Assembly: GCF_029227915.1 (NCBI RefSeq)
Contig: NC_079882.1
Coordinates: 11,842,001-11,906,000, forward strand
Reading direction: 5' to 3'
DNA length: 64,000 nt
Source: Hydractinia symbiolongicarpus
Lineage: Eukaryota; Cnidaria; Hydrozoa; Anthoathecata; Hydractiniidae
This document shows, piece after piece, positions 13,327 to 52,342 of this stretch. Within the stretch, counting starts at the first letter, position 1; the number at the start of each line of letters is the position of its first letter. Under the pieces are notes generated by a model. It worked only from the letters and a program-made list of their open reading frames with translations. It did not search any database and was not told the DNA's origin. Position numbers and translations under genes: made by a program.

Positions 13327-13333
13327 CAACAAA

Positions 13334-22211: not shown

Positions 22212-22218
22212 GTTGTCG
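22212..22218. repeat. Left 7-bp target-site duplication of the 30-kb element
   Basis: GTTGTCG directly abuts the left terminal inverted repeat. The identical 7-mer abuts the right terminus at 52336-52342. Confidence 0.8.
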
Positions 22219-22250
22219 CAAGGAGGTTTAAAAAGAAGGAGAGAGAACTC
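22219..22250 (+). repeat. Left terminal inverted repeat (32 bp)
   Basis: Exact reverse complement of 52304-52335. It begins CA, as do P and Galileo termini. Subterminal ATCCGTGTCTC follows at 22310-22320. Confidence 0.85.
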
Positions 22251-22425
22251 GCGGCGTCCCTTTAAATTTTCTATTCAATTTTTTATTGTTTCGGCGCCCC
22301 TTTGAACTGATCCGTGTCTCTGATTTGGCTCAATATTTACCTACCGACTCTGAAACGAGTGTTTTAACGAGAAAAGATAAATCTTAAAAATCACACTTAC
22401 AGCAATGCGGAAGAGCAGGAAAACA

Positions 22426-24625
22426 GGTAAGTCGTCCACGTATTACTTCCTGAATATAAAGGAGATATAGTATTCAACATGTGTTAGACCTATGTACCTT
22501 CCCAAGCCTTGTGGAGATAATGATGTGCTATTCTCCATAAAGCACAAGTGTAGTAGCCTGTAGTAGAGCGTTGTAGAATGTATTTCTCTGTAGTAAAGCG
22601 TATTTATCTGTAGTAGAGTGTAGTAGCCTGTAGTAGCCTGTAGTAGAGTGTAGTAGCGTGTAGTAGAGCGTAGTAGAATGTATTTCTCTGTAGTAAAGCG
22701 TATTTCTCTGTAGTAGAGTGTAGTAGCCTGTAGTAGCTTGTAGTAAAGTGTAGTAGCGTGTAGTAGAGCGTAGTAGAATGTATTTCTCTGTAGTAAAGCG
22801 TATTTCTCTGTAGTAGAGTGTAGTAGCCTGTAGTAGCTTGTAGTAAAGTGTAGTAGCGTGTAGTAGAGCGTAGTAGAATGTATTTCTCTGTGGTAAAGCG
22901 TATTTCTCTGTAGTAGAGTGTAGTAGCGTGTATTAGCCTGTAGTAGAGTGTAGTAGCGTGTAGTAGAGCGTAGTAGAATGTATTTCTCTGTAGTAGAGCG
23001 TATTTCTCTGTAGTAGAGTGTAGTAGCGTGTAGTAGAGCGTAGTAGCGTGTAGTAGAGCGTAGTAGAATGTATTTCTCTGTAGTAAAGCGTATTTCTCTG
23101 TAGTAGAGTGTAGTAGCCTGTAGTAGCCTGTAGTAGAGTGTAGTAGCGTGTAGTAGAGCGTAGTAGAATGTATTCCTCTGTAGTAAAGCGTATTTCTCTG
23201 TAGTAGAGTGTAGTAGCGTGTAGTAGAGCGTAGTAGCGTGTAGTAGAGCGTAGTAGAATGTATTTCTCTGTAGTAAAGCGTATTTCTCTGTAGTAGAGTG
23301 TAGTAGCCTGTAGTAGCCTGTAGTAGAGTGTAGTAGCGTGTAGTAAAGCGTAGTAGAATGTATTTCTCTGTAGTAAAGCGTATTTCTCTGTAGTAGAGTG
23401 TAGTAGCGTGTAGTAGAGCGTAGTAGCGTGTAGTAGAGCGTAGTAGAATGTATTTCTCTGTAGTAAAGCGTATTTCTCTGTAGTAGAGTATAGTAGCCTG
23501 TAGTAGCTTGTAGTAGAGTGTAGTAGCGTGTAGTAGAGCGTAGTAGAATGTATTTCTCTGTAGTAAAGCGCATTTCTCTGTAGTAGAGTGTAGTAGCGTG
23601 TAGTAGAGCGTAGTAGCGTGTAGTAGAGCGTAGTAGAATGTATTTCTCTGTAGTAAAGCGTATTTCTCTGTAGTAGAGTGTAGTAGCCTGTAGTAGCTTG
23701 TAGTAGAGTGTAGTAGAGCGTAGTAGAATGTATTTCTCTGTAGTAAAGCGTATTTCTCTGTAGTAGAGTGTAGTAGCCTGTAGTAGCTTGTAGTAGAGTG
23801 TAGTAGCGTGTAGTAGAGCGTAGTAGAATGTTTTTCTCTGTAGTAAAGCGTATTTCTCTGTAGTAGAGTGTAGCAGCCTGTAGTAGGCTGTAGTAGAGTG
23901 TAGTAGCGTGTAGTAGAGCGTAGTAGAATGTATTTCTCTGTAGTAAAGCGTATTTCTCTGTAGTAGTGTGTAGTAGCGTGTAGTAGAGCGTAGTAGCGTG
24001 TAGTAGAGCGTAGTAGAATGTATTTCTCTGTAGTAAAGCGTATTTCTCTGTAGTAGAGTGTAGTAGCCTGTAGTAGCTTGTAGTAGAGTGTAGTAGCGTG
24101 TAGTAGAGCGTAGTAGAATGTATTTCTCTGTAGTAAAGCGTATTTCTCTGTAGTAGAGTGTAGTAGCGTGTAGTAGAGCGTAGTAGCGTGTAGTAGAGCG
24201 TAGTAGAATGTATTTCTCTGTAGTAAAGCGTATCTTTCTGTAGTAGAGTGTAGTAGCCTGTAGTAGAGTGTAGTAGCGTGTAGTAGAGCGTAGTAGAGTG
24301 TATTTCTCTGTAGTAAAGAGGCGTTCATAATGGTCTCGCACTATATACGAACGAAAAATTATCGTGACATCTTCGCACAAAGAGATTCTTATCAGTACAT
24401 CACTTGTAGTTGGTAGATAAGCAAGGGATGATGGCCGATTCGCCAGTGGTCATCATAATATCAGAGACAAAGAAACAAATTTAGCAGACACGCCTAAATA
24501 TTCATTTTCAATTTCACATTCTGTGTTTTACTGCGCTTACCCAACGAGACATGATCCGTTTGTTTGAGCCTTAGAGAATACATTACAAGCAATGTATGTC
24601 CTAAATACCATGAGTGTTCACTATT
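22426..24625 (-). repeat. Left arm of the long inverted repeat
   Basis: Outer flank 22426-22549 is near-identical to the inverse of 45104-45225. The array 22550-24318 matches the array at 41771-45103 in reverse. Inner flank 24319 to about 24625 matches the inverse of about 41370-41680, including GGTCTCGCAC and CCCAACGAGACATGATC. The arm is shorter than the right arm, mainly because it has fewer decamers. Confidence 0.85.
22550..24318 (-). repeat. Decamer minisatellite, left array (about 177 units)
   Basis: Built of 10-bp units; the common ones on the minus strand are CTCTACTACA, CTTTACTACA, GAGAAATACG, GAGAAATACA, TTCTACTACG, CGCTACTACA, AGCTACTACA and GGCTACTACA. Because 10 leaves remainder 1 modulo 3, all three minus-strand frames cycle through the same codons and stay open, while the plus strand is full of TAG. 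The long Tyr/Leu/Thr-rich open frames are therefore not evidence of a protein. Confidence 0.95.
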
Positions 24626-24997
24626 ATGCTTTGTATTCATACATCAATCGTCAATTCCTCACAAGTTACTTTGGGGATATTAATTTTGCTCTTGATTGTT
24701 GAATGTCTAGTTGCGGTTTTATGAAAGAATAGTCGAAATTTCTATCTTTGAGCTGGAACGTGAACAACCAGTGTGTAATGTCATCCATACTTCATAATTT
24801 TCAAGTGCAGAAATTGTTACTTTAAAATTGCTCTACCGTGTTTAGTATTTGCGAAAACACTACAAAAGTCTTCATGGAAAAAATAAATGAAGCCTTTTCA
24901 ATGTAGTTTATATGTTCAAACGCAATTCATGATAGCCGTTCACTGGGTGAAGCAAAACTAAATTTGGATATGTTTACATCCTACAAAGAGCTTTTTC

Positions 24998-25155
24998 TCA
25001 GTAAATCAAGTGTAGTTGGCAGATAAACAAGGCATAAACGTTGATTTGCCAATGTTCATCATAATATCACATACAAAGAAGCAAATTTAGGAGACCCGTC
25101 TAAATATTCCTTTTCAATTTCACATCTTGTGTTCTTCTGCGCTCACCCAACGAGT
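24998..25155. repeat. Diverged direct copy of the inner flank (24385-24550)
   Basis: Shares GTAGTTGG-AGATAA, CATCATAATATCA, CTAAATATTC-TTTTCAATTTCACAT and CACCCAACGAG with 24385-24550, in the same orientation and about 610 bp away. It is more diverged than the two inverted arms are from each other, so it is an older duplication. Confidence 0.7.
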
Positions 25156-25226
25156 TCGAAATACCCTCAATGCTCAATGAACAAATACAACTGGTAAACG
25201 AGACGGAAGACAACCCATTTATCCCA

Positions 25227-25314
25227 GATGCCGGAGGAAATGATTGATGCGGCTCCCTTAGAGACGATCGTAGACGAGGACGAAGAAGGCAATAGTGATA
25301 TTGAGATCGATTAG
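25227..25314 (+). other. Possible C-terminal coding remnant
   Basis: From an ATG at about 25228 the frame reads an acidic tail, MPEEMIDAAPLETIVDED then EEGNSDIEID, and stops. It may be the last exon of a degraded transposon gene; no upstream exon was identified. Confidence 0.25.
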
Positions 25315-25719
25315 TGTTTGTTTTTATTATACTTTTAGAAATATATGTTGTGTTTATTAAAATTGTTGTTTTTATTTTTTAGCACACTAAGACTTTTGCA
25401 TAATTTTATAAGTCCCCTCCCATTTAACCCCCCGCCACGCCCCTCCCAAATAAGCCCCGTCCCCCAAAACCCATTTTGACAAATAAGCCCCCAGGGGCCT
25501 AATCGATCATTAACGGTAGACGTAATAGATCTTTCACGGTTGCGCAAAGCATTCTGGGTAATCACTATGACAAAATACAACACCGCTGCTAGCAGGGATG
25601 CGAAGTTTATGTGGTGGCGTGGTTTTTCTGTTTATACAAGTTAATTTTTAATCAATTCTTGTATATTTTACACAAAAAAATTAATTAAAAAAGCTAAAAA
25701 GTTAAATCAAGTGAGCTTG

Positions 25720-25969
25720 ATGGCTTCGGTTAAAGATATTAAATGTTTGCAGAATTTTTTAGAACTTTCTATGGCTGAACTTCAATTTTTCCTTTCCCAG
25801 CGTGGGCTTCCAACATCTGGATCACATGGAACGTTGGCTGTAAGAGCTCTGATTGCTCATGAGCAAAAAGTAGAAGTAAAAGCCACTGCTGAACATACAA
25901 TTTGCTTCTGCGTAACATGCGAAAAGACATTTGATTCAGACGAAGAGCTGACTTGGAATGTTTGGAAGG
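25720..25969 (+). CDS. First exon of a SAP-domain protein (fragment)
   Basis: The ATG at 25720 opens a frame reading MASVKDIKCLQNFLELSMAE; around residue 17 begins a SAP-like helix-turn-helix (LSMAELQFFLSQRGLPTSG, then LAVRALIAHE), a fold that binds AT-rich DNA. A Cys pair follows (CFCVTC). A strong donor, GGGTAAGT, ends the exon at 25969. No downstream exon was found before the MITE cluster at 26.1 kb, so this is probably a truncated gene or a captured exon. SAP domains precede YqaJ-type nucleases in many cnidarian mobile elements; that link is inference only. Confidence 0.45.
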
Positions 25970-26108
25970 GTAAGTCGGTTTAAAATAACTGAAACAAATA
26001 CCCTTTTTGGTTGGTTCGTTTTTAACGTAATTTCGAACGTTTTCTTCTCCCTTTAAAATTTGAACTGTACATTCTAATTTAAGTAGTTGTGGATTAAAAT
26101 TTGCCATA

Positions 26109-26914
26109 CACTCAATTATAGTGCCGTATTTTTCCTGCGCGCGCAGAAATTGAGGTAACTTTTCTCAGTCAGGGATAACCGCAAATTAGGCTATGATAGT
26201 CTAATTAGTCTACGATAGCCTATTTAGGCGATTTATCTCTCCTAATTAGGCTATCAAAATGGTTTTTGCTGCCTATCGCTGTTCTGTTACATAGTCGCAA
26301 TGATTTTATTAGCTAAAAACATTCTATAGAACCCCTTTTTGATGGTCCAAATATATTTTTCTTTATTATTTGCGCTGTCAGTAGATATAGCGTTTAGTTT
26401 GTTTTGATTTAGAACGCATGCGCTGTGATACGGCTTCTTTGTTTTACGGCCACGGTTGCTTCTGAACAAAGGCTAAATTTCCCGCGCGCATATTTTCAAC
26501 ATGGTGGCGCATAGCCTAAATAGACTATTTCTCGTCTAATTAGCCGATCCAAAGACTTTTGACGTATAATTTTTAGTTCCGCGAAGCAAATTACATGAAA
26601 TTTTACTTGACCAAAGACGATTTGACAGGCCACTGGATAGCCAAAAAAACATGGCGCAACTATACGTCGTTTCCGTTATATTTAACAAAGAAGATAGCAA
26701 ATCGCCTAAATAGGAGATACTCGCCTAAATAGTCTATGAAAAATCTCCTAACTAAGCTACTAGCCTAATTTGGCGTGATAGCCTAATTTGCGGTTATCCC
26801 TGACTGTTTCTGATTAGTTTGTTTACATTTTTACCTCCATTTCTGCGTGCGCATCGGGCATTAAATAATCACTTAGATGCGTGCGCAAGTAAATATCAGG
26901 ACTGTGATTCCATG
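26109..26914. mobile_element. mariner-like MITE, copy B, interrupted by another element
   Basis: Same termini as the element at 4520-4668, with TA at 26107-26108 and 26915-26916. After removing 26166-26806 and one copy of TTTCT, the remaining 160 bp align with copy A end to end. Confidence 0.65.
26166..26806. mobile_element. 641-bp TIR element nested in the MITE
   Basis: TIRs begin CAGTCAGGGATAACCGCAAA (26166 onward, continuing ATTAGGCT) and are repeated inverted to 26806. TTTCT lies on both sides (26161-26165 and 26807-26811), and the paralogous copy at 4520-4668 supplies the empty site. The interior repeats CCTAATTAGGCTAT-like palindromes many times. The superfamily is not assigned; the apparent duplication is 5 bp. 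Confidence 0.75.
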
Positions 26915-26994
26915 TATTGGTATTCCATCTAATCATGTGCAAAATTTGATTGTTGTTTTAAAGATGAGAATAGATTTCAGCTATAAAATGGCTA

Positions 26995-27119
26995 CTGACC
27001 GGTTTTGATTCTGCCCTGTAAAATACAAAGCCATTTGTCAGGGGCACAGACCTCACAAGCTCGGTCTGTACTTTTGAGCCAGGCTTTGTATTTTACAGTA
27101 CATTATCAAAACCGGTCAG
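26995..27119. mobile_element. Foldback MITE with TA flanks
   Basis: Ends CTGACCGGTTTTGAT and its inverse, flanked by TA at 26993-26994 and 27120-27121. A second inner pair (CTGTAAAATACAAAGCC and its inverse) makes most of the 125 bp self-complementary. Confidence 0.65.
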
Positions 27120-27139
27120 TATTTATTTATTAATGATTA

Positions 27140-27497
27140 GGCGGACGTCACAAATATTTGGTGTTAGAGTCACCCGACTGACCCTAATTTTTGATCGAAA
27201 TTTTTGATATACTGAGTCGGAAAAACTAAAATGACAAAAAATATTATACGCTTGTTGTCTCTCCACAGCAATTGCAGCGATTGTTGTGCTTCGCTTTAAA
27301 ATGTGAAAAGTGTTCACGCGGAAACTGCCGGAGGTGCCAAAGTTATCATTAAACATCGGCGATTTAATGGCGCGCGTTAATGGCTGGATGGTTGGATAAA
27401 ATTTTTCGAAATTTTGAGTTATCATTCGCCGATCTACCAACCGACTTTATTTTTGGTGCTCAAATGACTCTAACACCAGATATTTGTGACGTCCGCC
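27140..27497. mobile_element. Harbinger-like MITE
   Basis: TIRs of about 32 bp begin GGCGGACGTCACAAATAT with TTA on both sides (27137-27139 and 27498-27500). A 3-bp TWA duplication is the signature of PIF/Harbinger elements. Length 358 bp; the short open frame on the minus strand shows no homology I recognise. Confidence 0.7.
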
Positions 27498-27834
27498 TTA
27501 TGTAATTTGGATGCCAGCTATCGTTCAAAGTGTTTCCACTCTTTGAAGGCTTGAAATGCATAAAGTACTGTCAATTCTGAATTCCAGCTTGTATTAAGGC
27601 TTTCAGTGGTAAAGTAGCTGTATATTTATTTTTACTATAAAGCCAATGTTCAGCTAGCTACTAATAAAAAGCCTGTAATTAGTAAGTTAAAAAGAACACC
27701 CACTGTGCTGAATGATAAAAGATAAATGGGCTGTGGTATTTCTTTTGAATAAACTTCACTTCTTTTATTCTGAACTTCTGGTAACCAATTAAACCGGGGC
27801 TATGGTAACATTCAGATTCACTCACCCATGTTGA

Positions 27835-27905
27835 ATCTCCGTCAAGAGGAATCGAGCCCCGGTCAGAGTACGAGAGCTATAACCACTAATCTACGGCCCC
27901 ACAAG
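27835..27905 (-). repeat. tRNA-derived SINE head
   Basis: On the minus strand, TAGATTAGTGGTTAT fits an A box and GGCTCGATTCC a B box, about 40 bp apart, after a GGGGCCG start. The anticodon region does not fold as a proper tRNA, so a SINE is more likely than a functional tRNA gene. The SINE body probably extends left to about 27700. Confidence 0.5.
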
Positions 27906-27919
27906 TAACCTCGAGATTT

Positions 27920-29716
27920 CCTCCTTTACATAAACCAGGGTTTCAAATAACCTGGAAAATACTTAAACTTGAAGTATAGACCTATATTCTGAAAATTTAA
28001 AAGTAAATCTCAATTATTATGATACACAACATTACTACAATATATCATTGGCTATCGGTTGTCTTTTCAGAAATGGAAAAGGATGCAGCCTGAAAGGAAA
28101 GCTGAAATATTGAGGTATCAGAAAATATCTATAAAAATAATTTGATGGCTCAAAAGGTTTGACTCACTGATGGTATGACAATACTGGGATCTATTAAAGA
28201 TTAAAATTGAAGAGGCGTCCAGGGCCTCAATCTTGACAGTCCCACCAGTGAATCAGAACTAGAGATCAAGACTATCACTGTATAACATATGCACATTTTA
28301 CCAGGAATTCCATGAAAAAAACAACACGCATGAATCTATATTGGAGAATTTGCGCATCCAATTTTTTAATTTTTAGTATTCACTTATTGAATGGTTTAAA
28401 AGTGTTAAATATATTAACACATTGTTTTGTCGGTAGAAGTAACCTATAGCAAATATATACTGCAGGAATACATGACAAAGGGAGGGCTATGTCGTACGAT
28501 GTTGTATTCACTGCAATCATCTACTATTTCGTTTGCCGTGTCAATCCGCCCCTCAACATGGCCGCAGATTATCTTTTCACAGCAGGTTATATTTTCTCGT
28601 AACGATTGTGTTCCTTACTACAAGACATTCTTTTTTAAACTCTAATTCCATTTCAATCTTTTGCTCCATACAATTCTTTTTTTCGTGGGCAAGATGCATG
28701 TGCATTGATGTTTTAAAACAGATGATCATTCCAATTTATTTTAAAAAAATTTATAATTTGTTAGGATTTGTGCATTTAATGTTTACAAAATCAAGATTTT
28801 TAATTTTAAAAATGTTACCACAAGATTTTTAGTTCCGTAAATTCTCAGTGATCTGCTGTTATAAGACCAAAAAATAACTTTTTGAGGAAAATGATGATAA
28901 TAGGTATAATTTACATATAAAAATTGATTCTTTCCAGTATACAATTTCTGGCAACAATAACTTACGCTGTTGATTGTCATAATACTTATTACAGCCATTC
29001 ATTGGAAAACCATGCTATTAATGGTACACATTAACTGTGGAAATTTCCTATTAAAAAGTTTAAATTGGTGTTGTTGTTTTTTTCAATTATCTGCTGAATA
29101 ATAATTTTATAAAAAGATTAAAAAATAATTTTTTGAGGAAAACGTTAGTTTTTAAAATCTGATGTGGTGGAAAAGTAGGCCAGGGTTGATTTTTTATATA
29201 AAGAGAATATTTTTTTAAATATAATTTCCACCAACATGAAATGCAGCTAATTCCATACTGAATACATGTTCTGAAAGAGCTGGCACATTTATATTTATTT
29301 TTGAAAAAAAGAGACAGTGTACGTCATCTATTCAAAGATATCTGAGTTAAGCATATAATTATATTTCTGTAGCCTGAGCTAGATTGAATTTTGTTAATTA
29401 TTTTGAGTAAGCTTATTTTTTAAAGAAAGACAAATAGTGCTGTGTGTTCACTTTAGTAGTAGGAATACTTTTTGCCACTTGAAATACAATTGATCCGAAG
29501 ATATTTTTTGTCTTGTATGAAAGAAATTTGGACAATACTTTAAGGCAAGAACTTCTATTGTTCTTTGCTCACGTGATCATTATTGGGAAATCTTTTCTTC
29601 TTTAATGTTAGATGTGGCCATGCTGGCTTTATGCATATTGGTTGATTTTAATTCGGGTTGCACTGAAAAATTATTATATAAAAAAACTCAATTTTAATAT
29701 CTCAAAGAAAACTTAG
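27920..29716. other. AT-rich DNA inside the giant element, no gene seen
   Basis: No coding family, TIR pair or tandem array recognised. A motif AAAATAATTTTTTGAGGAAA recurs near 28865, 29122 and 32363, hinting at an unclassified dispersed repeat. Confidence 0.35.
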
Positions 29717-29720
29717 TTAA

Positions 29721-31194
29721 AGGAGCACTCCAGTGAAAAAAAAATATTTAAGAAAAAAATGTTATATAAAACATAGAATCGGATAATTCTCTTCATGAAA
29801 AAGACTTTACAAAGCTACAGCCACACGACTTCGAACCTCTTCTGTCTCACAAGGGGGAAATTAATAATGATGCAAAGTGATGAGGTGTCTTTTACTGGCT
29901 CAAGCAACGTTCTTAGCAAAATATTTTTTTTTTTTAAGAAATAAATATACTTAATCGCTTTTTTTAACATTCTTTTCGTCAAAAAACTTTATCATTTGCT
30001 TCATTAAAAAATCTTTCATACTTTACAAGCCAATTTATTTTTTTTACAGTTCAGCAATATTTTTCCTCTGCACACGCTTTTTTTGCGCACAAATGTAAAC
30101 AAATTTTATGTAACGTTGAAATTTTCTCCGTGATGGAGGACCATTGAAATGCGTGATATAAAATCAAATAATGTTCGGGTCTAGAGAAGTTGGTAAAACG
30201 GGGTATTATTATTGTATAAATAAAAATCAATCTTTGATTATGGTAGGTCATAAATGTGTTGCAGAAGCTACTGACTTACAAGTGGTTGTTTTGACAAAGC
30301 TGTTTTAGAAACTGCATTATCAGCATTACATGCAGCCGTTATAAAGTTACAAAGATTGAAGAAAATGGGTACATTTACCCCCTGAAAATACTTGGCATGT
30401 CCTTCCATCAAAAAAGCTTCTTTTTTGAAAAACAAAGAATAGAAACTTGAGCGCTACAAAAGATACATGTGTAACTAGAAAGCTTTTTTGTCGGTGTTTG
30501 TATTGGAAATTCGTATAATGTTCTCTTATTTAATATAAAAATGTACAAAACGTTATTTGGTTGAGTTCTGTGGATATAAGTACAAATATTGAGATGAGAA
30601 GAAATGAGAAACTTTAATCGCGTTCACTAGCTAAAATGGCATTTTTTACAAAGTGGCAGAGTATCTTAATATGGAAGTTTATTTCCTGCAGATATCTTTT
30701 AAAAGAACTATCTGTTAAGTGCACCAACCAAATATAAAAACTTTGATCGCTTGGTAGATCACCTGCACGACGTATTTTGTTTAGCCGTTTTTGAGTTCTT
30801 TCTTTTTCACAGACGGGATTCTGTGAAAACTTACTTCTTTACACTTCTCTGATCGATCGGTACATAGAAACACAGAGCAACTAACCATTTTTTAAAGATT
30901 TAAACGTAAATTACATACAAAAGCGATTTAATGTAAGCTGTATTTATAGGTCTTAACATGCGCTTGCTTAAACTTTCTGCACGATGTGATGTCATTATTT
31001 ATAATCGGGTCTAGTCCGAAATGAAATCGCGCCTGTCTGTTTTTTATGAGAAAAAAATTGAATATGCGAAGGCTTGTACAACAATTTTAAATAAGAAAAA
31101 CAAGTAAAGTAAGTTTTTTTTGATTTCTTATGCTTTTCTGAGTACGTATAAAACAAACAAAAAAAAGAAAAGTGATTTTTACTGGAGTTCCCCT
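29721..31194. mobile_element. TTAA-flanked TIR element (Kolobok/piggyBac-like ends)
   Basis: Left end AGGAGCACTCCAGTG matches the inverse of the right end (AGGGGAACTCCAGTA when read inward). TTAA sits on both sides (29717-29720 and 31195-31198), the target duplication of Kolobok and piggyBac families. The 1,474-bp interior has no long open frame, so it is non-autonomous. Confidence 0.6.
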
Positions 31195-31869
31195 TTAACT
31201 AGGCTAGACATGTCTGAAATCTGTACAATCCTTGTTAAACTGAGACAGTGTAGAGATACTGCTAACTTGGTACCATATTTATTCAAATAAGTAGTCAAAT
31301 TTTTATTCAGTATATTGACTTTCAGGAGGGACATGTTATATGTACAGGTAATATTGCCAGTTGAAATACCCCTAAGTTGAAGTATATCCCTCTCTTCAGT
31401 CAGCTAATTTCCTACCTCAAGGCTTTATTGCGACTTATGCTGAAAAAATGAATAAGCAATTTCTGATACTTTTGCACCCTGTTTTAATTTATAACAATCG
31501 TGGAGTGGTGGAGTTAGTTTTACAGTGTAATGATTTTAAAAACTAGATAAATTTCTGTTGTTTTAATTTAATGATGATGCGCGATGTTTTTTGTTCACAA
31601 CTCTTCTCGGATTTTTCTGTTCTAATTTATACTTTGCTTTTTATGTTAATCAATTTGGTGGTAATTTTTGCTTCTTTACTGTTTTTTTTGTTTTTTTTTG
31701 TATTTCTAATGCAGGTAAAACCAAAAAAAACTTTGATGAAAATGATTCTTGGAAGAGTGGGATAAGGAAGTTTTCTGGTAACAAAATTAGTTTTGTGTAA
31801 ATACTGATACTATGTGTGACCTTTTGTATTTCTGTGTTATGTTATTTAAAAAATATTTCCATTGTTGTA

Positions 31870-31990
31870 AAACCATGAAAGTTATTGGTTCGAATCCAAT
31901 CCATCTTTAAAAGGTGGTAGTTCAAATGAAAGAACAACATGGTGTGTAATTAGTTTCATACTGCAACAAACAATAATGCAAATCAATTCA
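31870..31990 (+). repeat. SINE copy 1 (B-box bearing)
   Basis: Contains ATTGGTTCGAATCCAAT, a perfect tRNA T-arm with B box, and then a body shared with 36510-36640 (AAAAGGTGGTAGTTCAAAT, TTAGTTTCATACTGCAAC). The 5' tRNA half is missing in both copies. Confidence 0.65.
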
Positions 31991-32110
31991 AAAAATTTTA
32001 CAAACAAATGTTTCAAAAAAAGAGGTAACTATAAGAAAAGAAATGAAAGAAGGAAATTTTTTAATTTACTCGGGATATACGTTCAGTTATTCAGGTTTTG
32101 CTGAGCTATA

Positions 32111-32321
32111 ACTACAATCATGTTCATAAATTATTGGAAAAACGGCTTTTGAGGCTTTTTTCAGAGTTTCCCCCCTCTCCCCCAACAGTCAGTGTTGATT
32201 TTGTGTTGATTTGTGCCCCAAAATACTGCCGGCGACTCTGGAAAAGACCTCCAACCAACACTAAAGAGTGGGGGGAGGGGGAAAGTGGTTTTTCCAAAAC
32301 TATTATGAACATGATTGTAGT
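32111..32321. mobile_element. 211-bp foldback MITE
   Basis: ACTACAATCATGTTCATAA at the left is repeated inverted at the right, with TIRs of about 35 bp allowing two small differences. The interior has CCCCTCTCCCCC and its near-inverse GGGGGAGGGGG. Confidence 0.6.
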
Positions 32322-33546
32322 TGCCATGTGAAAATCAAATCCAATAAGTAAAATTTAGTTAAAAAAATAATTTTTTGAGGAAACTAATTTATAACACCGC
32401 AGTTTGTAACATGTAATTGGTAATAATGTAATAATGTAATTGGTTCAAGAAGCTTGAAAGGTGGATATATTTTGGATAAGGTAGAAGATTGGATTAATGA
32501 ATTAAAGATGCTGAGTAAAATTGCTAAAACAGAGTCGCAAGGGACATAAAGTTGTTTTATCAGTGGCTGGCTACAAGCATAAATTAACATACTGTATGCA
32601 AACATACCACACATAATATAATTATTGGAAGAAGTACTCGTAGTTATTAATTCGAATTAATACCAGCACTGACGGGAGGTATTAAAGTAAACAATAACGA
32701 GAGACAACTGCTGTCACTGTGAAATGTGTAAGCAGGAAATCAGACTGAACGATATCAACCAGGAAGCAGTGTATCTAGTTGACTGACTACCTTCAAGGAA
32801 CGAGAGATACACAATTAACAAGCTATGCTTCTGGGCTCAGATTCGAATTTCAAGTTCACAATTGATCATGCTTTGTCATGCAAATAATGTGGCTTCCTTT
32901 CGCTTAGACAATGAAATCCGTAATGTCACGGGGATGTAACTAAAAGAGGTTTGTCATGATGTACGCATTGAACCGTGTCTACAACAGTTACCTGGTGAGC
33001 CATTGAGCCAGTGGACAGCGAATGTTTCTCAGGAATCGAGAGTTATGTATGCACAAGAGGCTTTTGGAACACTGGTCAAATGGCATTTTTAGATGCGAAG
33101 GTGTGCTACCAAAAGCATATGATGTAAATAAAATGGAAAAAAAGAAAAATTACAATAAACTTATTTTGCAAGTAGAGCATGAAACTTTAACGCCACTAGC
33201 GATATCCGTGTGTGGCGGAATGGGTCGCGTGTGTCGAAAGTTCTATACTCGGCTTTCTGAAATGATTTCTGAAAAGCGTAAACAACATTTTTTAAAACTT
33301 TCAGCATGGATATGACGTAACATTTGTTTTGCGCTTATCAAGTCTATATGCATATGTGTTCGAGGAAGTCGATCAGTCTTTTCATCTAACCTTGTCGCAT
33401 CTCTGTCAGTGGATCCTAAAGTAGTTCTGCTACCTTTATATATCATACTTATGTCTACATCAACTGAATAGCATTTTTCTTTTAATAAAGCGGCGATATT
33501 TCGGTATAGAAAAATTATAACAAATTATTTTATTGAAATGTATGTA
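32322..33546. other. Interior DNA, no gene recognised
   Basis: A frame at 33022-33315 (97 codons, starting MFLRNRELCMHKRLLEHWSN) shows no recognised motif and may be chance. Nothing else stands out. Confidence 0.3.
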
Positions 33547-36640: not shown

Positions 36641-36659
36641 TTGTAATTCATTCAGTAAT

Positions 36660-39530: not shown

Positions 39531-39539
39531 TGTTTGTAA

Positions 39540-40975: not shown

Positions 40976-41034
40976 AAAAAGTATTATCTAAAAGGTTATG
41001 AAAGGCCCAATTCACCAAAACAACTGAACCTGTT

Positions 41035-41335: not shown

Positions 41336-41770
41336 GGAAACAATAATACTGATCACTCGCCTTTACTAATGGTATTTGGAACATACATTGCTTGTGATGT
41401 ATTCTGTTAGACTCAAACAAACTGATCATGTCTCGTTGGGTAAGCGCAGTAAAACACAAGATGTGAAATTGAAAATGAATATTTAGGCGTGTCTGCTAAA
41501 TTTGTTTCTTTGTCTCTGATATTATGATGACCACTGGCAAATCGGCCATCATGGCTTGTTTATCTACCAACTACAATTGATGTACTGATAAGAATCTTTT
41601 GTGGGAAGATGTCCAGATAATTTTTCGTTTGTATATAGTGCGAGACCATCATGGCGATGGTAGTCACTTGAACGCCGTTTTCCCCAGTTCAATTTAACTG
41701 AAAAGTTAGAATATTTTTTGAAACTATTTGTATGAAGCTTAACTGCTGTAAACCCCTGCGCTTCTTAACA

Positions 41771-44700
41771 GGCTACTACACTCTACTACAAGCTACTACA
41801 CTCTACTACAACCTACTACACTCTACTACAAGCTACTACGCTCTACTACAGGCTACTACACTCTACTACAGAGAAATACGCTATACTAAAGAGAAATACG
41901 CTCTATTACAGAGAAATACGCTCTACTACACTCTACTACAAGCTACTACACTCTACTACAAGCTACTACACGCTACTACACTCTACTACAAGCTACTACA
42001 GGCTACTACACTCTACTACAGAGAAATACGCTTTACTACAGAGAAATACATTCTACTACATTCTACTACAGAGAAATACGCTCTACTACGCTCTACTACA
42101 CGCTACTACACTCTACTACAGAGAAATACGCATTACTACAGAGAAATACATTCTACTACGCGCTACTACACGCTACTACACTCTACTACAAGCTACTACA
42201 GGCTACTACACTCTACTACAGAGAAATACGCTTTACTACAGAGAAATACATTCTACTACGCTCTACTACACGCTACTACACTCTACTACAAGCTACTACA
42301 GGCTACTACACTCTACTACAGAGAAATACGCTTTACTACAGAGAAATACATTCTACTACGCTCTACTACACGCTACTACGCTCTACTACACACTACTACA
42401 CTCTACTACAGAGAAATACGCTTTACTACATAGAAATACATTCTACTACGCTCTACTACACGCTACTACACTCTACTACAAGCTACTACAGGCTACTACA
42501 CTCTACTACAGAGAAATACGCTTTACTACAGAGAAATACATTCTACTACGCTCTACTACACGCTACTACACTCTACTACAAGCTACTACAGGCTTACTAC
42601 ACTCTACTACAGAGAAATACGCTTTACTACAGAGAAATACATTCTACTACGCTCTACTACACGCTACTACACTCTACTACAAGCTACTACAGGCTACTAC
42701 ACTCTACTACAGAGAAATACGCTTTACTACAGAGAAATACATTCTACTACGCTCTACTACACGCTACTACACTCTACTACAAGCTACTACAGGCTACTAC
42801 ACTCTACTACAGAGAAATACGCTTTACTACAGAGAAATACATTCTACTACACGCTACTACACTCTACTACAAGCTACTACAGGCTACTACACTCTACTAC
42901 AGAGAAATACGCTTTACTACAGAGAAATACATTCTACTACGCTCTACTACACGCTACTACGCTCTACTACACGCTACTACACTCTACTACAGAGAAATAC
43001 GCTTTACTACAGAGAAATACATTCTACTACGCTCTACTACGCGCTACTACACTCTACTACAGGCTACTACAGGCTACTACACTCTACTAGAGAGAAATAC
43101 GCTTTACTACAGAGAAATACATTCTACTACGCTCTACTACACGCTACTACGCTCTACTACACGCTACTACGCTCTACTACACGCTACTACACTCTACTAC
43201 AGAGAAATACGCTTTACTACAGAGAAATACATTCTACTACGCTCTACTACACGCTACTACACTCTACTGCAGGCTACTACACGCTACTACACTCTACTAC
43301 AAGCTACTACATGCTACTACACTCTACTACAGAGAAATACGCTTTACTACAGAGAAATACATTCTACTACGCTCTACTACACGCTACTACACTCTACTAC
43401 AAGCTACTACAGGCTACTACACTCTACTACAGAGAAATACGCTTTACTACAGAGAAATACATTCTACTACGCTCTACTACACGCTACTACGCTCTACTAC
43501 ACACTACTACACTCTACTACAGAGAAATACGCTTTACTACATAGAAATACATTCTACTACGCTCTACTACACGCTACTACACTCTACTACAAGCTACTAC
43601 AGGCTACTACACTCTACTACAGAGAAATACGCTTTACTACAGAGAAATACATTCTACTACGCTCTACTACACGCTACTACACTCTACTACAAGCTACTAC
43701 AGGCTTACTACACTCTACTACAGAGAAATACGCTTTACTACAGAGAAATACATTCTACTACGCTCTACTACACGCTACTACACTCTACTACAAGCTACTA
43801 CAGGCTACTACACTCTACTACAGAGAAATACGCTTTACTACAGAGAAATACATTCTACTACGCTCTACTACACGCTACTACACTCTACTACAAGCTACTA
43901 CAGGCTACTACACTCTACTACAGAGAAATACGCTTTACTACAGAGAAATACATTCTACTACACGCTACTACACTCTACTACAAGCTACTACAGGCTACTA
44001 CACTCTACTACAGAGAAATACGCTTTACTACAGAGAAATACATTCTACTACGCTCTACTACACGCTACTACGCTCTACTACACGCTACTACACTCTACTA
44101 CAGAGAAATACGCTTTACTACAGAGAAATACATTCTACTACGCTCTACTACGCGCTACTACACTCTACTACAGGCTACTACAGGCTACTACACTCTACTA
44201 GAGAGAAATACGCTTTACTACAGAGAAATACATTCTACTACGCTCTACTACACGCTACTACGCTCTACTACACGCTACTACGCTCTACTACACGCTACTA
44301 CACTCTACTACAGAGAAATACGCTTTACTACAGAGAAATACATTCTACTACGCTCTACTACACGCTACTACACTCTACTGCAGGCTACTACACGCTACTA
44401 CACTCTACTACAAGCTACTACATGCTACTACACTCTACTACAGAGAAATACGCTTTACTACAGAGAAATACATTCTACTACGCTCTACTACACGCTACTA
44501 CACTCTACTACAAGCTACTACATGCTACTACACTCTACTACAGAGAAATACGCTTTACTACAGAGAAATACATTCTACTACGCTCTACTACACGCTACTA
44601 CACTCTACTACAAGCTACTACAGGCTACTACACTCTACTACAGAGAAATACGCTTTACTACAGAGAAATACATTCTACTACGCTCTACTACACGCTACTA

Positions 44701-45103
44701 CGCTCTACTACACGCTACTACACTCTACTACAGAGAAATACGCTTTACTACAGAGAAATACATTCTACTACGCTCTACTACACGCTACTACACTCCACTA
44801 CAGGCTACTACAGGCTACTACACTCTACTACAGATAAATACGCTTTACTACAGAGAAATACATTCTACAACGCTCTACTACACGCTACTACACTCTACTA
44901 CAGAGAAATACGCTTTACTACAGAGAAATACGCTCTACTACAGAGAAATACGCTCTACTACAGAGAAATACGCTCTACTACACTCTACTACAAGCTACTA
45001 CACTCTACTACAAGCTACTACAGGCTACTACACTCTACTACAGAGAAATACGCTTTACTACAGAGAAATACATTCTACTACGCTCTACTACAGGCTACTA
45101 CAC
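41771..45103 (+). repeat. Decamer minisatellite, right array (about 333 units)
   Basis: Dominated by a 100-bp higher-order unit of ten decamers; for example, 42191-42290 reads AGCTACTACA, GGCTACTACA, CTCTACTACA, GAGAAATACG, CTTTACTACA, GAGAAATACA, TTCTACTACG, CTCTACTACA, CGCTACTACA, CTCTACTACA. One extra T at 42594, repeated at 43705, breaks the 10-bp phase. A 1,111-bp block is duplicated inside the array. Confidence 0.95.
42200..44421 (+). repeat. 1,111-bp duplicated block within the right array
   Basis: Rare variants recur at exactly 1,111 bp: ACACTACTACA at 42390 and 43501, the phase-breaking GGCTTACTAC at 42591 and 43702, CTACTAG ending at 43090 and 44201, and CTACTG ending at 43269 and 44380. 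The block edges (about 42200, 43311 and 44421) are approximate. Confidence 0.85.
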
Positions 45104-45225
45104 TTGTGCTTTATGGAGAATAGCACATCATTATCTCCACAAGACTTGGGAGCGTACATAGGTCTAACACATGTTGAATACTATATCTCCTTTATATTCA
45201 GGAAGTAATACGTGGACGACTTACC

Positions 45226-45855
45226 GGAAAACATGTAGTTTAGTTAAACTACAAGATTCAATGAGGGTGAAGTTTGTTTTTCCACTTCCATAAGGACGCG
45301 GAAGGAGTAAAGTGCCTTCAAAGTGCGAAAAGCTGCCTTGGGAGATCGTAAAGTTTTACAACTTATAAACTATTTCGTATGTCCCCTCCTGGGAAAATGT
45401 TAGTTAAAGGGTTGATTAACGTTTTTGTGCAGGTCTCGTCAGGAGGGGTTATTTATAAAATTGTTTTTTTTACTCTCGAAGTAGACGAATTCTCGGTAGG
45501 GTGTCGCAGCACGTCGCAGCACTCGGTGATGTTTTCCATTGTCATGGAACAAAAGAAAATAATTATTAGTTCTAATTATGTATATTTAGGTAAAAGTTTT
45601 AAGCAACTTTTTTTCTTTTTTCCCCAGTGGGAGTAGATTTTCTGTTTATGTATATATATTCTTTCTTTCTCTCACACCAGCTGTATGTTTTGAATATATA
45701 TTGAATTGAGTTTATAATTGTTTTTTTATTAGGTGTTACATAACCAGCTGGCAAGTGGTTCACATTTTTTTTTAATTCCCTTGACACCTTTGTGGGTTTT
45801 TTATGAAGTTTTTTTGAAAAATAAAGTATTCATATTTGAATTTTGCTGTGTCAAC
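45226..45855 (+). promoter_or_regulatory. 5' region of the transposase gene
   Basis: The 630 bp between the satellite flank and the transposase ATG presumably hold the promoter and 5' UTR. A TTTTTTTATTAG acceptor-like site (45722-45732) lies before the start. No specific element can be assigned. Confidence 0.35.
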
Positions 45856-48800
45856 ATGTCTGCTTCACATTCAGAGTATATTCAAAAGCTATGTAGATTG
45901 TGTGGGAAGAAAATTGTGAAAAGTAAACATTACGTTAATTTTAAATCTTGTGATATTTACAGTGAAGTGTTTCAATCTATATATGGAATAAATTGTGAAC
46001 AAGAAGATCCTTGTGTATTTCCTAAATTTACTTGTAATGGATGTAGAAGAAAATTAGATGAGATGAAAACGTCAAAAAAAATAATTGGTACTGCTGCATC
46101 ATTTTACCCTCATGTGGATGAAAATTGTGTGTGCATGAATTATGCTGTAAACAGAAAAGACAGCTTAAAAATACTGGAATTAGATGTGAGTATGAAGAAA
46201 GTTGGTTTTAGTATATGTGATAAATCGGATAACTATAAACGTGTCTATACCCTTTGTCAAAATGAAAAAGAATTAAACCATTTGCTTACAATACGTATAG
46301 ACAACAGCAATGGTTGGGATTTCTCCATATATGGGAAACCTATGGAGAAAGAAACAATACAACTAACAAAAACTCTGCCATGTGTTTTGAAAAATGATGA
46401 TATTTCAACTTTCTCGTCATTCTGGAAGTCAGTCAGTGTTTGCACGGGGTTACAAGGTTATGAAGATGTAATCAAGTCGAGATGTAATTTCGAACAGCCA
46501 TTCATGAATCAGAGTGGAACATTTCCAGTAGCTTTTGTTGAAGACGATAAAATGGTCAGATTTGATGAAGACAATTTTAAAACAATACGCCATACCAACT
46601 GTCATTTTTTAGCTGAAAAACCTTCATCTGTATGTAGTATGTGCAATTCTTTTAAACCAACAGTTAAAAAAGTTAGAAGTAGACGGAAAAGTGATGATTC
46701 TGTGCTTGATTCCTCACATACAAACATTCGATATCTTTCCAGAGAAGAACTAGAGGAAAGATATCGCAATACTCAGGGAGAAAAACAGAGAGCAATAAAG
46801 AAAGTTGCCCAATTATCATCTTGGGTAAGAAAAATTACTGAGAAAGAATGCATCCATGTTGATGATGAGCAACACGAATTTATAAAAAATATTGTTTGCA
46901 ATGAGGAAACATGTCCTGAAATACCCGAAGGCAGTCCCCAGTGGTTGTTATGGGAGCAACAAAAAGAAATGGCTTCCAAAAGTTCACCTAATGGCATGAG
47001 ATGGCACCCACTAATTATTAGGTGGTGCCTCAGTTTATACCACCATTCACCAGCAGCATATAAACATTTGCGAAATCCGAATTTGAATTTTTTAAAACTC
47101 CCACATATTGACACACTTAAAAAATACATAAACTTCACTGATCCAATGTGTGGATTCAATCCAGATGTCATTGAAAGATTAATAGTGGATAGTAAAATTG
47201 CAACTCTGGATGATCACCAAAAAAACGTTTCGCTTATTTATGATGAGATGAAAATAAAAGCTGACTTGGTGTTCAGACAGTCAACTGGACAATTGGTTGG
47301 TTTCACTGATATGGGGGATATTAACGATGAGTTAGTTGAATTTCAAAAACGTGCTGAGGGATCATCAGAGAATGATCGTCACTTTGCTTCCTATGTGATA
47401 GTGTTTATGGTTCGAGGAATTGTTTCATCTCTGGTGTATCCTTTTGGATATTTCGCATCATTGGGATTTACCTCTGATCAGCTCTATCCATGTGTATGGG
47501 AGGCGACATATGTATTGGAGGCAATTGGTTTTTATGTTCGAGCATTTATTTCAGATGGTGCTTCTCCCAATAGGAAGTTTTACAAAATTATGGTGACACC
47601 TGATATTGGTAACACATATTGGACCAACAACTTATTATCATTGGACAGAAAGATCTTTTTTATATCCGATGTCCCTCATCTCATTAAAACAACGAGAAAC
47701 TGTTTCGAGAACTCTCATGGAAACAATAATACACGCAATCTTTTTGTAAGTGTTTTTTGTTTGTTTGTTTCAATTTTAAAGTATATCTGTATACATATAT
47801 CAATTTTCTATTTATTAGCTCGATCACATGGATATCAGCTGGAACCATCTTGTCAATGTTTATGAATGGGATCTGAATTTACATGGAGCAGCACCTGGAT
47901 TAAGGAAACTTTATAAACTAAAAGAGGATCACATAAAGTTAACTCCAAGGTTGAGGATGCAAGTTAAGTTGGCTACCCAAGTGAGATATTTTTCTTTTCT
48001 TTTTTTATTATTTATTTGTCTGCTTGTTTGTATTAGTGTTTTCTGAGTGATAGTGGATTCACAGTTTGATTATTTTGTGGGAGTTGCAAATAATGATATA
48101 CTTCTGATAATGTGTTTATCATTGCTCATGTAAATTATGATTTTGCATTTAGGTTTTGAGTAAAACAACTGCTGATGCACTTGAGGTTCAGGGGCTGCAT
48201 TATACGAAAAGTACAATAAAGTTTGTGCGTATGTTTGACCAAGTTTTTGATTGCTTGAATGTATCTTCAATTAATCAAGATCGTGGCGGAAAAATAGCTC
48301 TTGCAGCATATAGAGATGTTAACGATTGGCGTTTTGAGGTTAGTAGTATCATTCGAAATACATTCAATTATTTTGTAACGGAATTCAGAAACACAACATT
48401 TTTCCCTCAAAAAGCTCAAGTTCATTTTGCATATTTGTAAACCAGTCCTAAAGAACTTGATCTCCATGTAAAAGGGTGTGCAAATATTTCCATTTTCATT
48501 TTTCATTTTTTTCACATCAACATGTAAAATTCAGTTTTTAGAGAAAGAATTCCTCGAACATTACCTGGGAAGGTGGGAAGAACAAGCCAATGACACACCT
48601 AATTTATCCCAAGATGAAAAAAATAAATTGTTATTGAGCAAACAGACGATAAATGGTTGGAAAATAACAGGTAAAAAATCTACATTTTTCTGCAATTGTG
48701 GTTCCAGGCAATGTTTCATGGACAAACGGTGTTGTTCTATAAATGTATATTTTTTTTATCTTTGTCCATAGTGAAATCATTCGTGGAACTGACCAAATTA

Positions 48801-49067
48801 CTTCTCCAGAGTCCAAATGTCAAGATGATTTTGAGCGAGAAATTCTCACAAGATCCATTGGAGGAACATTTCGCTCGTCAAAGACGAAGTGGTGGTACAT
48901 GTGACAACCCAACACTTTATCAATTTGGCCAACAAGAACTTTCTTTGCTTGTTATGAAATCTGAGTTGATCAGAGATCTACGTGGAAACACTCGACGTGG
49001 TAATCAAAATCAGATTCACCTAGACGTAAATGATATGAGGAAACTTCCACAGAAAAGAAAGAGATAG
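45856..49067 (+). CDS. P-superfamily transposase with N-terminal Cys-pair finger, 5 exons, intact
   Basis: DDE-type transposase that would act on the TIRs of the surrounding element. Exons 45856-47745, 47819-47980, 48153-48338, 48535-48670 and 48772-49067; all GT-AG, phases close, 889 codons without interruption. N-terminus: CRLCGKK at residues 14-20 and a second pair, CNGC, near residue 61, a ZAD-like zinc-binding arrangement; no THAP signature is seen. The RNase H-like core has YDEMKIKADLVF (D463), GQLVGFTDMG, FISDGASPNRKF (D567) and VPHLIKTTRN; the C-terminal block FSQDPLEEHFARQR carries the likely third acid, E822, with DNPTLYQFG after it. These are hallmark P/THAP9 blocks. ATG 45856 is chosen because it directly precedes the finger; the frame upstream has no other ATG. 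Confidence 0.9.
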
Positions 49068-50280
49068 TTATTTATATATTGATACTTTTGGAAACATGAT
49101 TGTTTGACTATTTTATTTATATTTTTTCTGAGTATGTCAGACATTTTTTCCATTACGCTTTTTCAACATAGAAGTTCTTTTGTTATTAGTGCCTTGTCTT
49201 TTGAGTCACATCTTTTGCAAATATTTTTAGTGGAGTACGATTTTGACTTTGATTTGAAACATTTTTTTGAAAACATCAAATCTTAGAAAATAATTGAGAT
49301 TAAAAACATTTAGGATTGCTACTTTATTATTGCTATGTAATTTTTATTTATGTCATCGGGAAATTACAACTATTACGGAATTTCTTTTATCTTCATTTCG
49401 AATGGATCCGCCATACGTGAATAAATATTACAGTTTTGTTTTGCTTTTTTACATACTCACTTCGCGATATGTAGAACAACCCTGGGGACAAGTTTCATTA
49501 TATTCCCAACAAGAATTCATGCGAAGGAGTGTCGAAATTAATATTCGCTATTCGGGACTATGTTGATTTAAAAAAAGAACGTGACAAAGGCCTCTTGGTG
49601 TAAGGGTGTATACAAACCACAATAAAACATACCCGATACCCGTGTGAGATGTAAAACTTGTTTGCAAAGAGAGTTCGATACCCGTGTGAGATATAAAACT
49701 TGTTTGCAAAAAATTTAATCAAATGGAATAATCAAAAAGTGAGTTGATTTCATCAGGCCACAGTCAGGCATAGAGCATCCGATGCGGCAATCCTAGGTCC
49801 GAGGTTGCGGTCAGCTTTAAGTAGCGATTCTCGCGTAAGAATATTTGCGTCGGTAATTATGCACGCGCAACTTATTTTTCAGGGTCCCTCCAGCTGATAA
49901 AAAGCATGTTGTTTCATACCATCTTGATTAGCCTATCCATCGACCATTTCTCCGCGTTTTTATGATCTATTAAATTTCTAGCAAAGCGCGCAGAGTTTTG
50001 ATCTCGCAGCATTATTCAGTTTAACGCTTGCCAATGTGCATAACTGAACAAAGAAGTAGCACAAAAAAAAGAAATGAGAGTGAAGTTCACAAATCTTGGC
50101 AAAAATTTAGATTTAAAATAAACAGCTTCAGCGAGATTGAATCCTTACTCAATCCGAAAAAAACCCTTAAAATAGTACAAACATAATAAGGGTATGATTA
50201 TTTTACTAAGAAACACAGTTATATACATGGAAAAGATATATAGAAATTAAAACAAGTTATAGGTAAAAATGTTATGACAA
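49068..50280. other. Spacer between convergent element genes
   Basis: 3' flanks of the transposase and the second gene. A direct repeat containing GATACCCGTGTGAGAT and TAAAACTTGTTTGCAAA occurs near 49635-49670 and 49678-49710. A frame at 49294-49566 (90 codons) has no recognised motif. Confidence 0.4.
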
Positions 50281-52071
50281 TTAGTTAAGTTTTTTTCTCA
50301 TTGCTGGTTCACCTTTTTTAGATAAGACTACAGTCAACTTCTCTTTTTTCTCCGATGCTAGAGAAGCAAGTTTGCGTCGAACTACTTGTATATATGCAGT
50401 GACATATGCTTTTGCTCTGATGTCACACCATTTTTTAATGATCTGAGCTTTGAGAATTTTCGATAACTTCTCATTTCCAAGATACCGTGAAAGTATGACC
50501 CAGGCTTGATCAATTAAAGAGTCCTTCATAAGTTCATTTTCGAAAAGTTCCCGTATATCTTCTCCTTTATATTTTTTCAACATGTTCAAATTTAAAACTT
50601 TTCTAATAACGTTTTCAATTCTTCTGCAAAAAATAAACATGTCATCATTGACTTTTATCAGGTATCCTCTGCTGACTTGGTCCACCCAAGATCTTGTATA
50701 ATCCAGAAAACTATATACCTGCAGTTTATCATCACCTGAAACTTTCAATGAGTTCAGAAACTGCAATGCAGCCACAGCAACAACTTTGTTTTTCGAATCT
50801 GCTAATCTTTGGTATTTTTTACGTAGCGAGAAAATTATGTATCCTGAAACATAATACAGAACAGTTTGTTCCTCAGTTGTGAGTTTCAAGTCAAGACTTT
50901 TTTCGACATGTCGATTTTTGTTTTCATGAGCTACTAGTATTTTTATTAACTCCATAACAAATTTCTGCAACAACATAGAGAATTCTTGACTGTCAATGCA
51001 GTATCCTTTAGGTAATACATGTTTCCAATGTTGTCTGAATTTATCGTCTTGTGCAAGTTCATGCACTTTTCTCCAAAGAGATTCTTTTCCTGAACCAGTC
51101 AGTAGGTTAGATTTTTGCAATTCTTTAAATATGCGACACACTACATTTTCAGAAATAATGTCCAAAACATCACTCCCAGCATTCAAAATTGAGTTGGCTA
51201 ATTCTTTGACACGATTTCCAGGTGTTTTGAATCCTTTCACAACAATGTTATTGATTGGGTCTTTTGAAATTTTAACCATAGCATCACGAACAAAATTCAT
51301 TTTTTCTTGCTGCAGCTCATGATCGGTGATGGATAAAGATTCTAAAAGGGTGCAAAAAAAAAGGTTTATACCACCAGTTCACAATATTTTGCTCTATATA
51401 TAGCAAAAAAAAATTCCTTATGTTCTCAGAGTTCATGAATGAATACTTACGATTCGATTTTGATTTAACTTGTTTTGTGGAAATTGTTGTAGTTGATTTA
51501 TTTTTTGAGTCATCAAGAGTTTTTCTTGCCACTGTTGTTGTTTCTGGATCTATTATTGGAATACAGAGTTGACATCAGAACACAGTTGTGATAACAAAAC
51601 AAGACAACAACAACAAAAAGCATATCAAATGATGATAATACAATAGCTTTTCTATGAAATCTACATGCAGAGTCAAAAAACAAAACATTATAGCTAGCTA
51701 GCTAATGGTGTTTTAAAGAAAACATGACTTTATTAAACTGAAGCATTACCTGTTGGCTTTTTACATATCAGAGTATGTTTCTTGTAGTAAGCTTCTTTAA
51801 AATACTGTTTTTTGCACTTGCTGCACACAAACTTCACATTTTTGGTACTGTTGTTATCAACCACCATGTCCACATCTTCTTCATCAACGAATACTATTTG
51901 AGGAATACCCAAATATCCAGCATCTACTTCATTTTCTTCTTCCAACAGATCTTCCACAAACGATACTTCCACCTCACAACTTTCGTAAACAGTAAAATCT
52001 GACAACATTTCTTCCGTCACAAAAAAGTCATCATCCAATTCTATTATATTTTTAACGTCTTCGCCTGCCAT
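50281..52071 (-). CDS. Accessory protein of the giant P-type element, 3 exons, unknown function
   Basis: Exons on the minus strand: 51750-52071, 51451-51549 and 50281-51341; all GT-AG, phases close, 493 codons, no interruption. The N-terminal 85 residues are strongly acidic (IIELDDDFFVTEEM; EEDVDMVVD). A finger follows, FVCSKCKKQYFKEAYYKKH with CKK after it: CxxC then H and Cys, a C2HC-like zinc finger at about residues 86-104. A Thr/Lys-rich linker (exon 2) leads to a 350-residue helical C-terminal region. I recognise no catalytic motif. It is convergent with the transposase and its start lies 264 bp from the right terminus. Being intact beside an intact transposase suggests a shared role such as terminus binding or regulation; that is inference. 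Confidence 0.8.
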
Positions 52072-52303
52072 TTCGCTTCTTGCTTGTTTATGATATGTAA
52101 AAACGACAAATTTATCAACTAACAAGCATTTACCGCTGAGAGAAAAATAGCCGCGGGCTCATAATTTATGCAAATAGTAACAAAAGACAACGGCTAATTT
52201 ATTAATTTAAGCGCGAGATTTCAAATTTTGATTGACAGAATTCGATGTAAGAACAATAGAGAAAAGTAAACATGAGACACGGATGATTTCAATAGAAATA
52301 AAA

Positions 52304-52335
52304 GAGTTCTCTCTCCTTCTTTTTAAACCTCCTTG
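52304..52335 (-). repeat. Right terminal inverted repeat (32 bp)
   Basis: Exact inverse of 22219-22250. The subterminal 11-mer lies at 52274-52284. Confidence 0.85.
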
Positions 52336-52342
52336 GTTGTCG
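52336..52342. repeat. Right 7-bp target-site duplication of the 30-kb element
   Basis: GTTGTCG, identical to 22212-22218. A chance match at a fixed position has probability of about 1 in 16,000. Confidence 0.8.

Follow-up and report, generated by a model that had tools for sequence, protein, structure and literature searches.

The window studied here is a 64,000-nucleotide stretch of the genome of the hydrozoan Hydractinia symbiolongicarpus (C8:11842001-11906000), and coordinates refer to it unless a contig is named. It carries two identical, inverted 32-bp terminal inverted repeats (TIRs) of the P-transposon type at 22219-22250 and 52304-52335, with the heptamer GTTGTCG directly outside each of them (22212-22218 and 52336-52342) and a TIR-to-TIR span of 30,117 bp. 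An 11-bp subterminal inverted repeat (ATCCGTGTCTC) is found at 22310-22320 and again at 52274-52284, so that the outer element has both the 7- or 8-bp duplication and the inverted ends with subterminal repeats that characterize the P superfamily. The original prediction for this locus had described all of these features correctly, and had read the whole as a single 30-kb P transposon or as captured host DNA mobilized between two P-type ends. We are instead highly confident that two independent cut-and-paste transposons are nested here, a 7.3-kb P element being split by a 22.8-kb member of a giant, multicopy foldback family. End-to-end alignment with other copies divides the P element into a left piece of 207 bp (22219-22425, forward strand), with the left TIR and subterminal repeat, and a right piece of 7,102 bp (45234-52335, forward strand), with both genes and the right subterminal repeat and TIR. 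Between the TIRs lie the inner element (22426-45225) and the two copies of its own 8-bp duplication, GGAAAACA (22418-22425 and 45226-45233), and removal of the 22,800-bp insert together with one GGAAAACA leaves a P element of 7,309 bp.

The right piece encodes an intact P-type transposase, as had been proposed. The gene (45856-49067, forward strand) has exons at 45856-47745, 47819-47980, 48153-48338, 48535-48670, and 48772-49067, joined across GT..AG introns into an open frame of 889 aa, and its product is 100% identical over its whole length to the predicted protein LOC130613056 of H. symbiolongicarpus. Three Pfam domains scored above the cut-off (PF21787, E 8e-24; PF21788, E 3.2e-16; PF21789, E 8.8e-06), and their types (TNP-like RNase H N, GTP-binding insertion, and RNase H C) correspond to the split RNase H fold. 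The sole sequence match in the PDB at E ≤1 was the Drosophila P transposase (6p5a and 6pe2; E 1.1e-13 for 6p5a), and the two proteins align at the motif pairs DEMK/DEMK, SDgasp/SDlgtg, QDpleehF/QDivehfF, and SDvPHLIK/SDtPHLIK, within which lie what we take to be the catalytic residues. A catalytic DDE triad and a D(2)H motif are named for the P superfamily in the available text of PMC4168063. No THAP domain was matched in the transposase by Pfam at E 0.1, and its relatives gave weak zf-AD or RAG1 N-terminal matches, mostly under the cut-off; since membership rests on the catalytic core, we take the apparently THAP-less transposase as variation within the superfamily.

The second gene of the P element lies on the reverse strand (50281-52071; exons 52071-51750, 51549-51451, and 51341-50281) and encodes a protein of 493 aa that has no Pfam match above the cut-off. 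Four further relatives, 41-51% identical, were found among 7,995 candidates scored, and the predicted structure (mean predicted local distance difference test score, 53) was too poor for a fold search. By eye, the N-terminus of the protein resembles a C2H2 finger. In its 32-bp TIRs and 11-bp subterminal repeats, the element comes close to the Drosophila P element, for which the available part of PMC7776569 gives 31 bp and 11 bp, but it is flanked by a 7-bp rather than an 8-bp duplication. It also differs in being 7.3 kb rather than 2.9 kb long, in the lack of a Pfam THAP match, and in the presence of the extra second gene.

We searched the 480.9-Mb genome, a single assembly from which all of the genomic evidence comes, with the outer TIR, the 39-bp end of the inner element, and a 1,531-bp piece of the inner element's centre. 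Ends were matched with up to 3 mismatches, and the reversed pattern served as the control. The outer TIR gave 49 matches and its control none, and the 49 form 21 pairs, one of them the window's, and 7 ends without a partner. Of 21 further loci fetched, 20 had both TIRs and one (L024) did not. The 20 other paired copies range from 962 to 7,650 bp, 9 of them being exactly 7,305 bp, and all 20 are flanked by duplications, which are exactly 7 bp in 19 cases and 11 bp in one that lies inside an ATCT repeat. Because the TIR count stands against a control of zero and every other paired copy has a duplication, a chance origin of the outer ends is excluded. With an intact transposase, clean 7-bp duplications, and many copies that are 99.8-99.9% identical, the 7.3-kb family is a candidate for P-type activity beyond insects and vertebrates, and the element itself is likely to be autonomous and recently active.

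The same sample speaks to the insert. This 22.8-kb segment is absent from all 20 other paired copies, and in 19 of them the 26-bp insertion site is intact and carries a single GGAAAACA; base-by-base comparison of seven P copies showed the predicted sequence at the site in every one. The remaining copy (L020) is the 962-bp deletion derivative, the alignment of which runs unbroken across P position 207 and is cut seven bases beyond it, within the probe. A search with the 32-bp terminus had been suggested as a check on the single-unit reading, and none of the 20 complete pairs that it recovered elsewhere supports that reading, the 30,117-bp spacing occurring once among the 21. That the entire 30,117 bp moved as one under the P transposase is accordingly very improbable, although neither the P ends nor the 7-bp duplication nor the transposase is damaged, so that the whole might in principle still be mobile, and a review lists, by title, a paper on the transposition of a 100-kb extended P element in Drosophila (PMC6431247, available part). 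Nothing shows that the 30-kb whole has moved as a unit, because its spacing is unique, and the inner unit is bounded by ends and a duplication of its own and belongs to a separate multicopy family. For these last reasons, we also rejected the capture of host DNA by P-type ends: the additional 22.8 kb is a separate foldback element.

Self-comparison of the window revealed long inverted repeats that run inward from 22426 and 45225 and enclose the 22,800-bp unit. Directly outside them lies the exact 8-bp duplication GGAAAACA; for comparison, two random places in the window agreed over 8 bp in 211 of 2,000,000 trials. The left arm (22426-24615, forward) consists of an outer unit (22426-22546), an array of a 10-bp satellite repeat (22547-24318; 1.8 kb), and an inner unit (24326-24615), and the inverted right arm (41365-45225, reverse) has the same parts, with its outer unit at 45105-45225, its array at 41768-45104 (3.3 kb), and its inner unit at 41365-41653. 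The arms are 89.9% identical over 1,954 columns and the inner units 92.8% identical over 290. The centre (24616-41364; ~16.7 kb) is without a recognized gene and is common to other copies. Pairs resembling miniature inverted-repeat transposable elements (MITEs) were looked for in the centre, with one convincing case, a 641-bp insertion with inverted ends at 26166-26806 that the L031 copy lacks. A repeat outside the element, at 4517-4671, resembles an uninterrupted form of the centre sequence (26106-26139 and 26814-26917) that is split by this MITE-like insertion. The inner end GGTAAGT and the adjoining duplication together form a splice-donor-like CAG/GTAAGT at 22425-22432, and a polypyrimidine-AG stretch is present in the other end (45190-45225); the insert might be removed by splicing in the manner of an introner (PMC9860276, in its available text).

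Members of the inner family have the ends GGTAAGTCGTCCACG, and the 39-bp end gave 127 matches in the genome, as against none for the reversed control. TIR pairs were taken from among the matches listed for this end, and 14 of them (the window's included) are giants spanning 20.7-30.3 kb; the longest, at C5:22416595-22446883, shortens to ~23.0 kb once a P copy inside it is subtracted. An exact 8-bp duplication flanks 9 of the 11 pairs read at both ends (nine giant, two small), among them 8 of the 9 giants, and the same inner structure is bounded by different 8-bp duplications at other loci. Arrays of the GTAGTA satellite were present in 28 of 30 junction loci, L043 and L051 having none, and the junction loci L031, L034, L035, L036, L037, and L044 extend into the centre, where they match the window at 91-99.7%. 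With 40 out of 323 candidates scored, at least 26 places (the window included) matched the 1,531-bp centre piece at 98-100% identity over ~1,500 bp or more, and at least 5 others did so at 93-94%. It is present in all 14 giant pairs, in full in 10 and in part in 4, and the closest relative among the scored candidates (C10:7754061-7782074) is 100% identical to the window over it. The giant copy at C8:11107892-11130038, of which 18.2 kb was read, aligns in inverted orientation to the whole centre of the window in five blocks (17,329 columns, with 159 mismatches, or 0.92%, and gaps). Two short copies, of 5.1 kb on C1 and 4.4 kb on C2, seem to have arisen by internal deletion. Full-length matches to the centre piece at 99% also occur outside the TIR pairs listed (at C5:26318205, C3:12828671, C12:10163139, and others) and are perhaps copies with other or diverged ends.

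Collapse of the satellite arrays or misjoining of two loci during assembly is an exceedingly improbable source of this structure. Such arrays are hard to assemble and the support here is assembled sequence only, but each boundary carries an exact duplication, the structure recurs elsewhere with other 8-bp duplications, and the flanks are unique.

We classify the inner element, from its structure, as a foldback-type non-autonomous DNA transposon: its arms are inverted and carry short tandem repeats, it is flanked by an 8-bp duplication, no gene was recognized in its centre, and its family includes small deletion derivatives. The features expected of a foldback, namely, long inverted ends that bear tandem repeats and a constant 8-bp duplication at dispersed loci, are those found here, the latter in 9 of 11 pairs. 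A duplication of 8-10 bp with long TIRs also agrees with the Mutator superfamily, but this combination is not unique to Mutator, and since no transposase was found for the inner element, its superfamily is unproven and Mutator membership is not established. We sought an autonomous partner in two smaller copies, on C14 and C9, and found none in them. Arm and array take up the first 3.4 kb or more of the 6.8-kb C14 copy, and no open reading frame (ORF) in it passed the filter. The 8.6-kb C9 copy, in the 8.7-kb stretch L062 (C9:25527200-25535900), has the end unit and array in common with the giant family and, among the matches listed, three ORFs, one of which (4392-5060, reverse strand) resembles by eye a long interspersed nuclear element (LINE).

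This C9 copy, which has arm sequence in common with the giants and a LINE-like ORF that is not in their centre, is one reason to ask whether the inner unit is a composite in which two foldbacks flanked host DNA by chance and mobilized it, as in the Ising transposing element of Drosophila. The unequal lengths of the arm arrays (~1.8 and 3.3 kb) would fit such an origin, as would a centre without a recognized element gene that carries MITE-like insertions, such as that at 26166-26806. We consider this account unlikely, in that the same centre is present in 14 of 14 giant pairs and aligns end to end between two copies, which indicates that the giant now amplifies as one unit; the composite reading may be true of how it arose and not of how it moves now. 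The likeness to the Ising element lies in the movement of a large DNA segment between foldback elements, but that composite is hundreds of kilobases long (PMC6431247, as far as available), whereas the Hydractinia unit has a fixed size of ~22 kb and recurs at many loci.

Each family has inserted into the other. The giant copy at C5:22416595-22446883 contains the 7,305-bp P copy L012 (C5:22435399-22442703), just as the P copy in the window contains a giant. The outer flanks of L012 match the window at 100% over 25360-25596 and 25595-25652, with 191 and 10 P-adjoining bases unmatched, so that the corresponding break in the window's centre falls at 25595-25596. Compared with seven full-length relatives, the P copy in the window has two private substitutions (49177 and 49307) and a difference in a TATA repeat; the P copy is therefore of recent origin, and the insertion that split it came even later. 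Because the P copy that it split carries only these two substitutions, the 22.8-kb unit itself must have moved recently. What is shown for the giant is that it inserts precisely and duplicates a constant 8 bp, that it has been amplified as one unit, and that its movement is recent.

The history that best accounts for the locus has two steps. A probably autonomous 7.3-kb P-superfamily element, with its transposase and second gene, first inserted here and duplicated 7 bp. A 22.8-kb foldback then entered it 207 bp from the left end, in the leader that lies upstream of the transposase, with a duplication of 8 bp. The giant foldback is probably a cut-and-paste element that depends on a transposase provided in trans, our best guess being a Mutator-like one, and its satellite arrays may be repeated transposase-binding sites, after a proposal made for Galileo; the available text of PMC4079207 discusses Galileo THAP binding sites. 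We regard as evenly balanced the stronger proposition that a gene-free foldback of ~22 kb, ~17 kb of it non-coding, has been amplified and is still moving whole because its kilobase arrays serve as landing platforms for a transposase acting in trans. If this is true, the size of such an element would be limited by its ends and not by its cargo.

Some points weigh against reading the insert as a gene-free member of an amplified foldback family. The number of giant copies is a lower bound, and the centre was read through in one further giant copy, the others being judged by the 1.5-kb piece, paired ends, and junction reads. Two inner-family pairs (L030/L031 and L032/L033) have no exact duplication. 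A Pfam scan of the 107 ORFs of ≥48 aa in 24330-41760 gave a single match at E ≤0.01, a weak one to Orf78 (E 0.009), and no Mutator-like or other transposase, but genes made of small exons could have gone undetected in such a scan. A possible exon at ~25708-25974 (forward strand), followed by GTAAGT, has a weak SAP-like match (E 0.021; 14.9 bits, with a cut-off of 23.9). This exon is also what might speak for a decayed autonomous giant, viral, Maverick-like, or large Mutator-like, the genes of which have rotted: it shows no difference in 267 bp between two giant copies, where ~2.4 would be expected at the mean rate, a deficit that is not significant. With nothing but the Orf78 match from the 107 ORFs of the centre, and no further ORF of ≥110 aa, besides the three listed, in the giant copy at C8:11107892-11130038, we think decay of this kind quite unlikely.

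Both halves of the nest have a precedent in Galileo, a Drosophila P-superfamily foldback with mostly 7-bp duplications and long, internally repetitive TIRs (PMC4168063, available text), but in Hydractinia these traits are split over two elements, a P element with short TIRs and a foldback that is flanked by 8-bp duplications and lacks a P transposase. The inner element resembles Muta1 and the Mutator-like elements of Aedes, which have 8-9 bp duplications, long TIRs, and non-autonomous members with unrelated internal DNA, and 10 of 12 long-TIR families of which carry subterminal tandem repeats of 9-15 bp (PMC5225508, in part). It is likewise similar to Tm1 of Meloidogyne in its composite TIRs, repeats (~14 bp in Tm1), and duplications (8-10 bp), but Tm1 copies measure 0.17-2.5 kb (PMC3169594, in the portion available), whereas the Hydractinia giants measure 20.7-28.0 kb, with arrays of up to 3.3 kb. 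The giant family differs from the Mutator-like foldbacks in that no transposase was seen for it. TU elements have an 8-bp duplication and 15-bp repeats. They are named as sea urchin foldbacks in the available text of PMC4079207, where Tetris of Drosophila virilis is also described as a non-autonomous foldback with tandem-repeat TIRs, a variable non-coding middle, and 8-9 bp duplications; Tetris differs in having TIRs of at most 1,735 bp, ~220-bp repeats, and only three structurally complete copies, as against a ~17-kb centre amplified many times in Hydractinia.

Foldback transposons are usually small or heterogeneous. A fixed unit of ~22 kb without a recognized gene raises the question of how a transposase synapses ends 20-28 kb apart, to which the satellite arrays are perhaps the answer. 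The giant family readily provides satellite DNA and long inverted repeats to the genome of a cnidarian that is studied for its stem cells and allorecognition. Repeats, for the most part unclassified, make up about half of the H. symbiolongicarpus genome according to the available part of PMC11067881, which names no such giant foldback. A literature search found no paper on the family described here, which is weak evidence of its absence from print. For genome scans in general, the locus teaches that perfect outer ends do not prove a single unit and that inner ends and inner duplications should be checked for.

Elsewhere in the window, two overlapping forward-strand ORFs match ThiS-like (13027-13323) and MoaE-like (13316-13795) domains in Pfam. 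A two-frame arrangement of MOCS2 occurs in other animals, and the overlap seen here would be the same arrangement kept in a hydrozoan.

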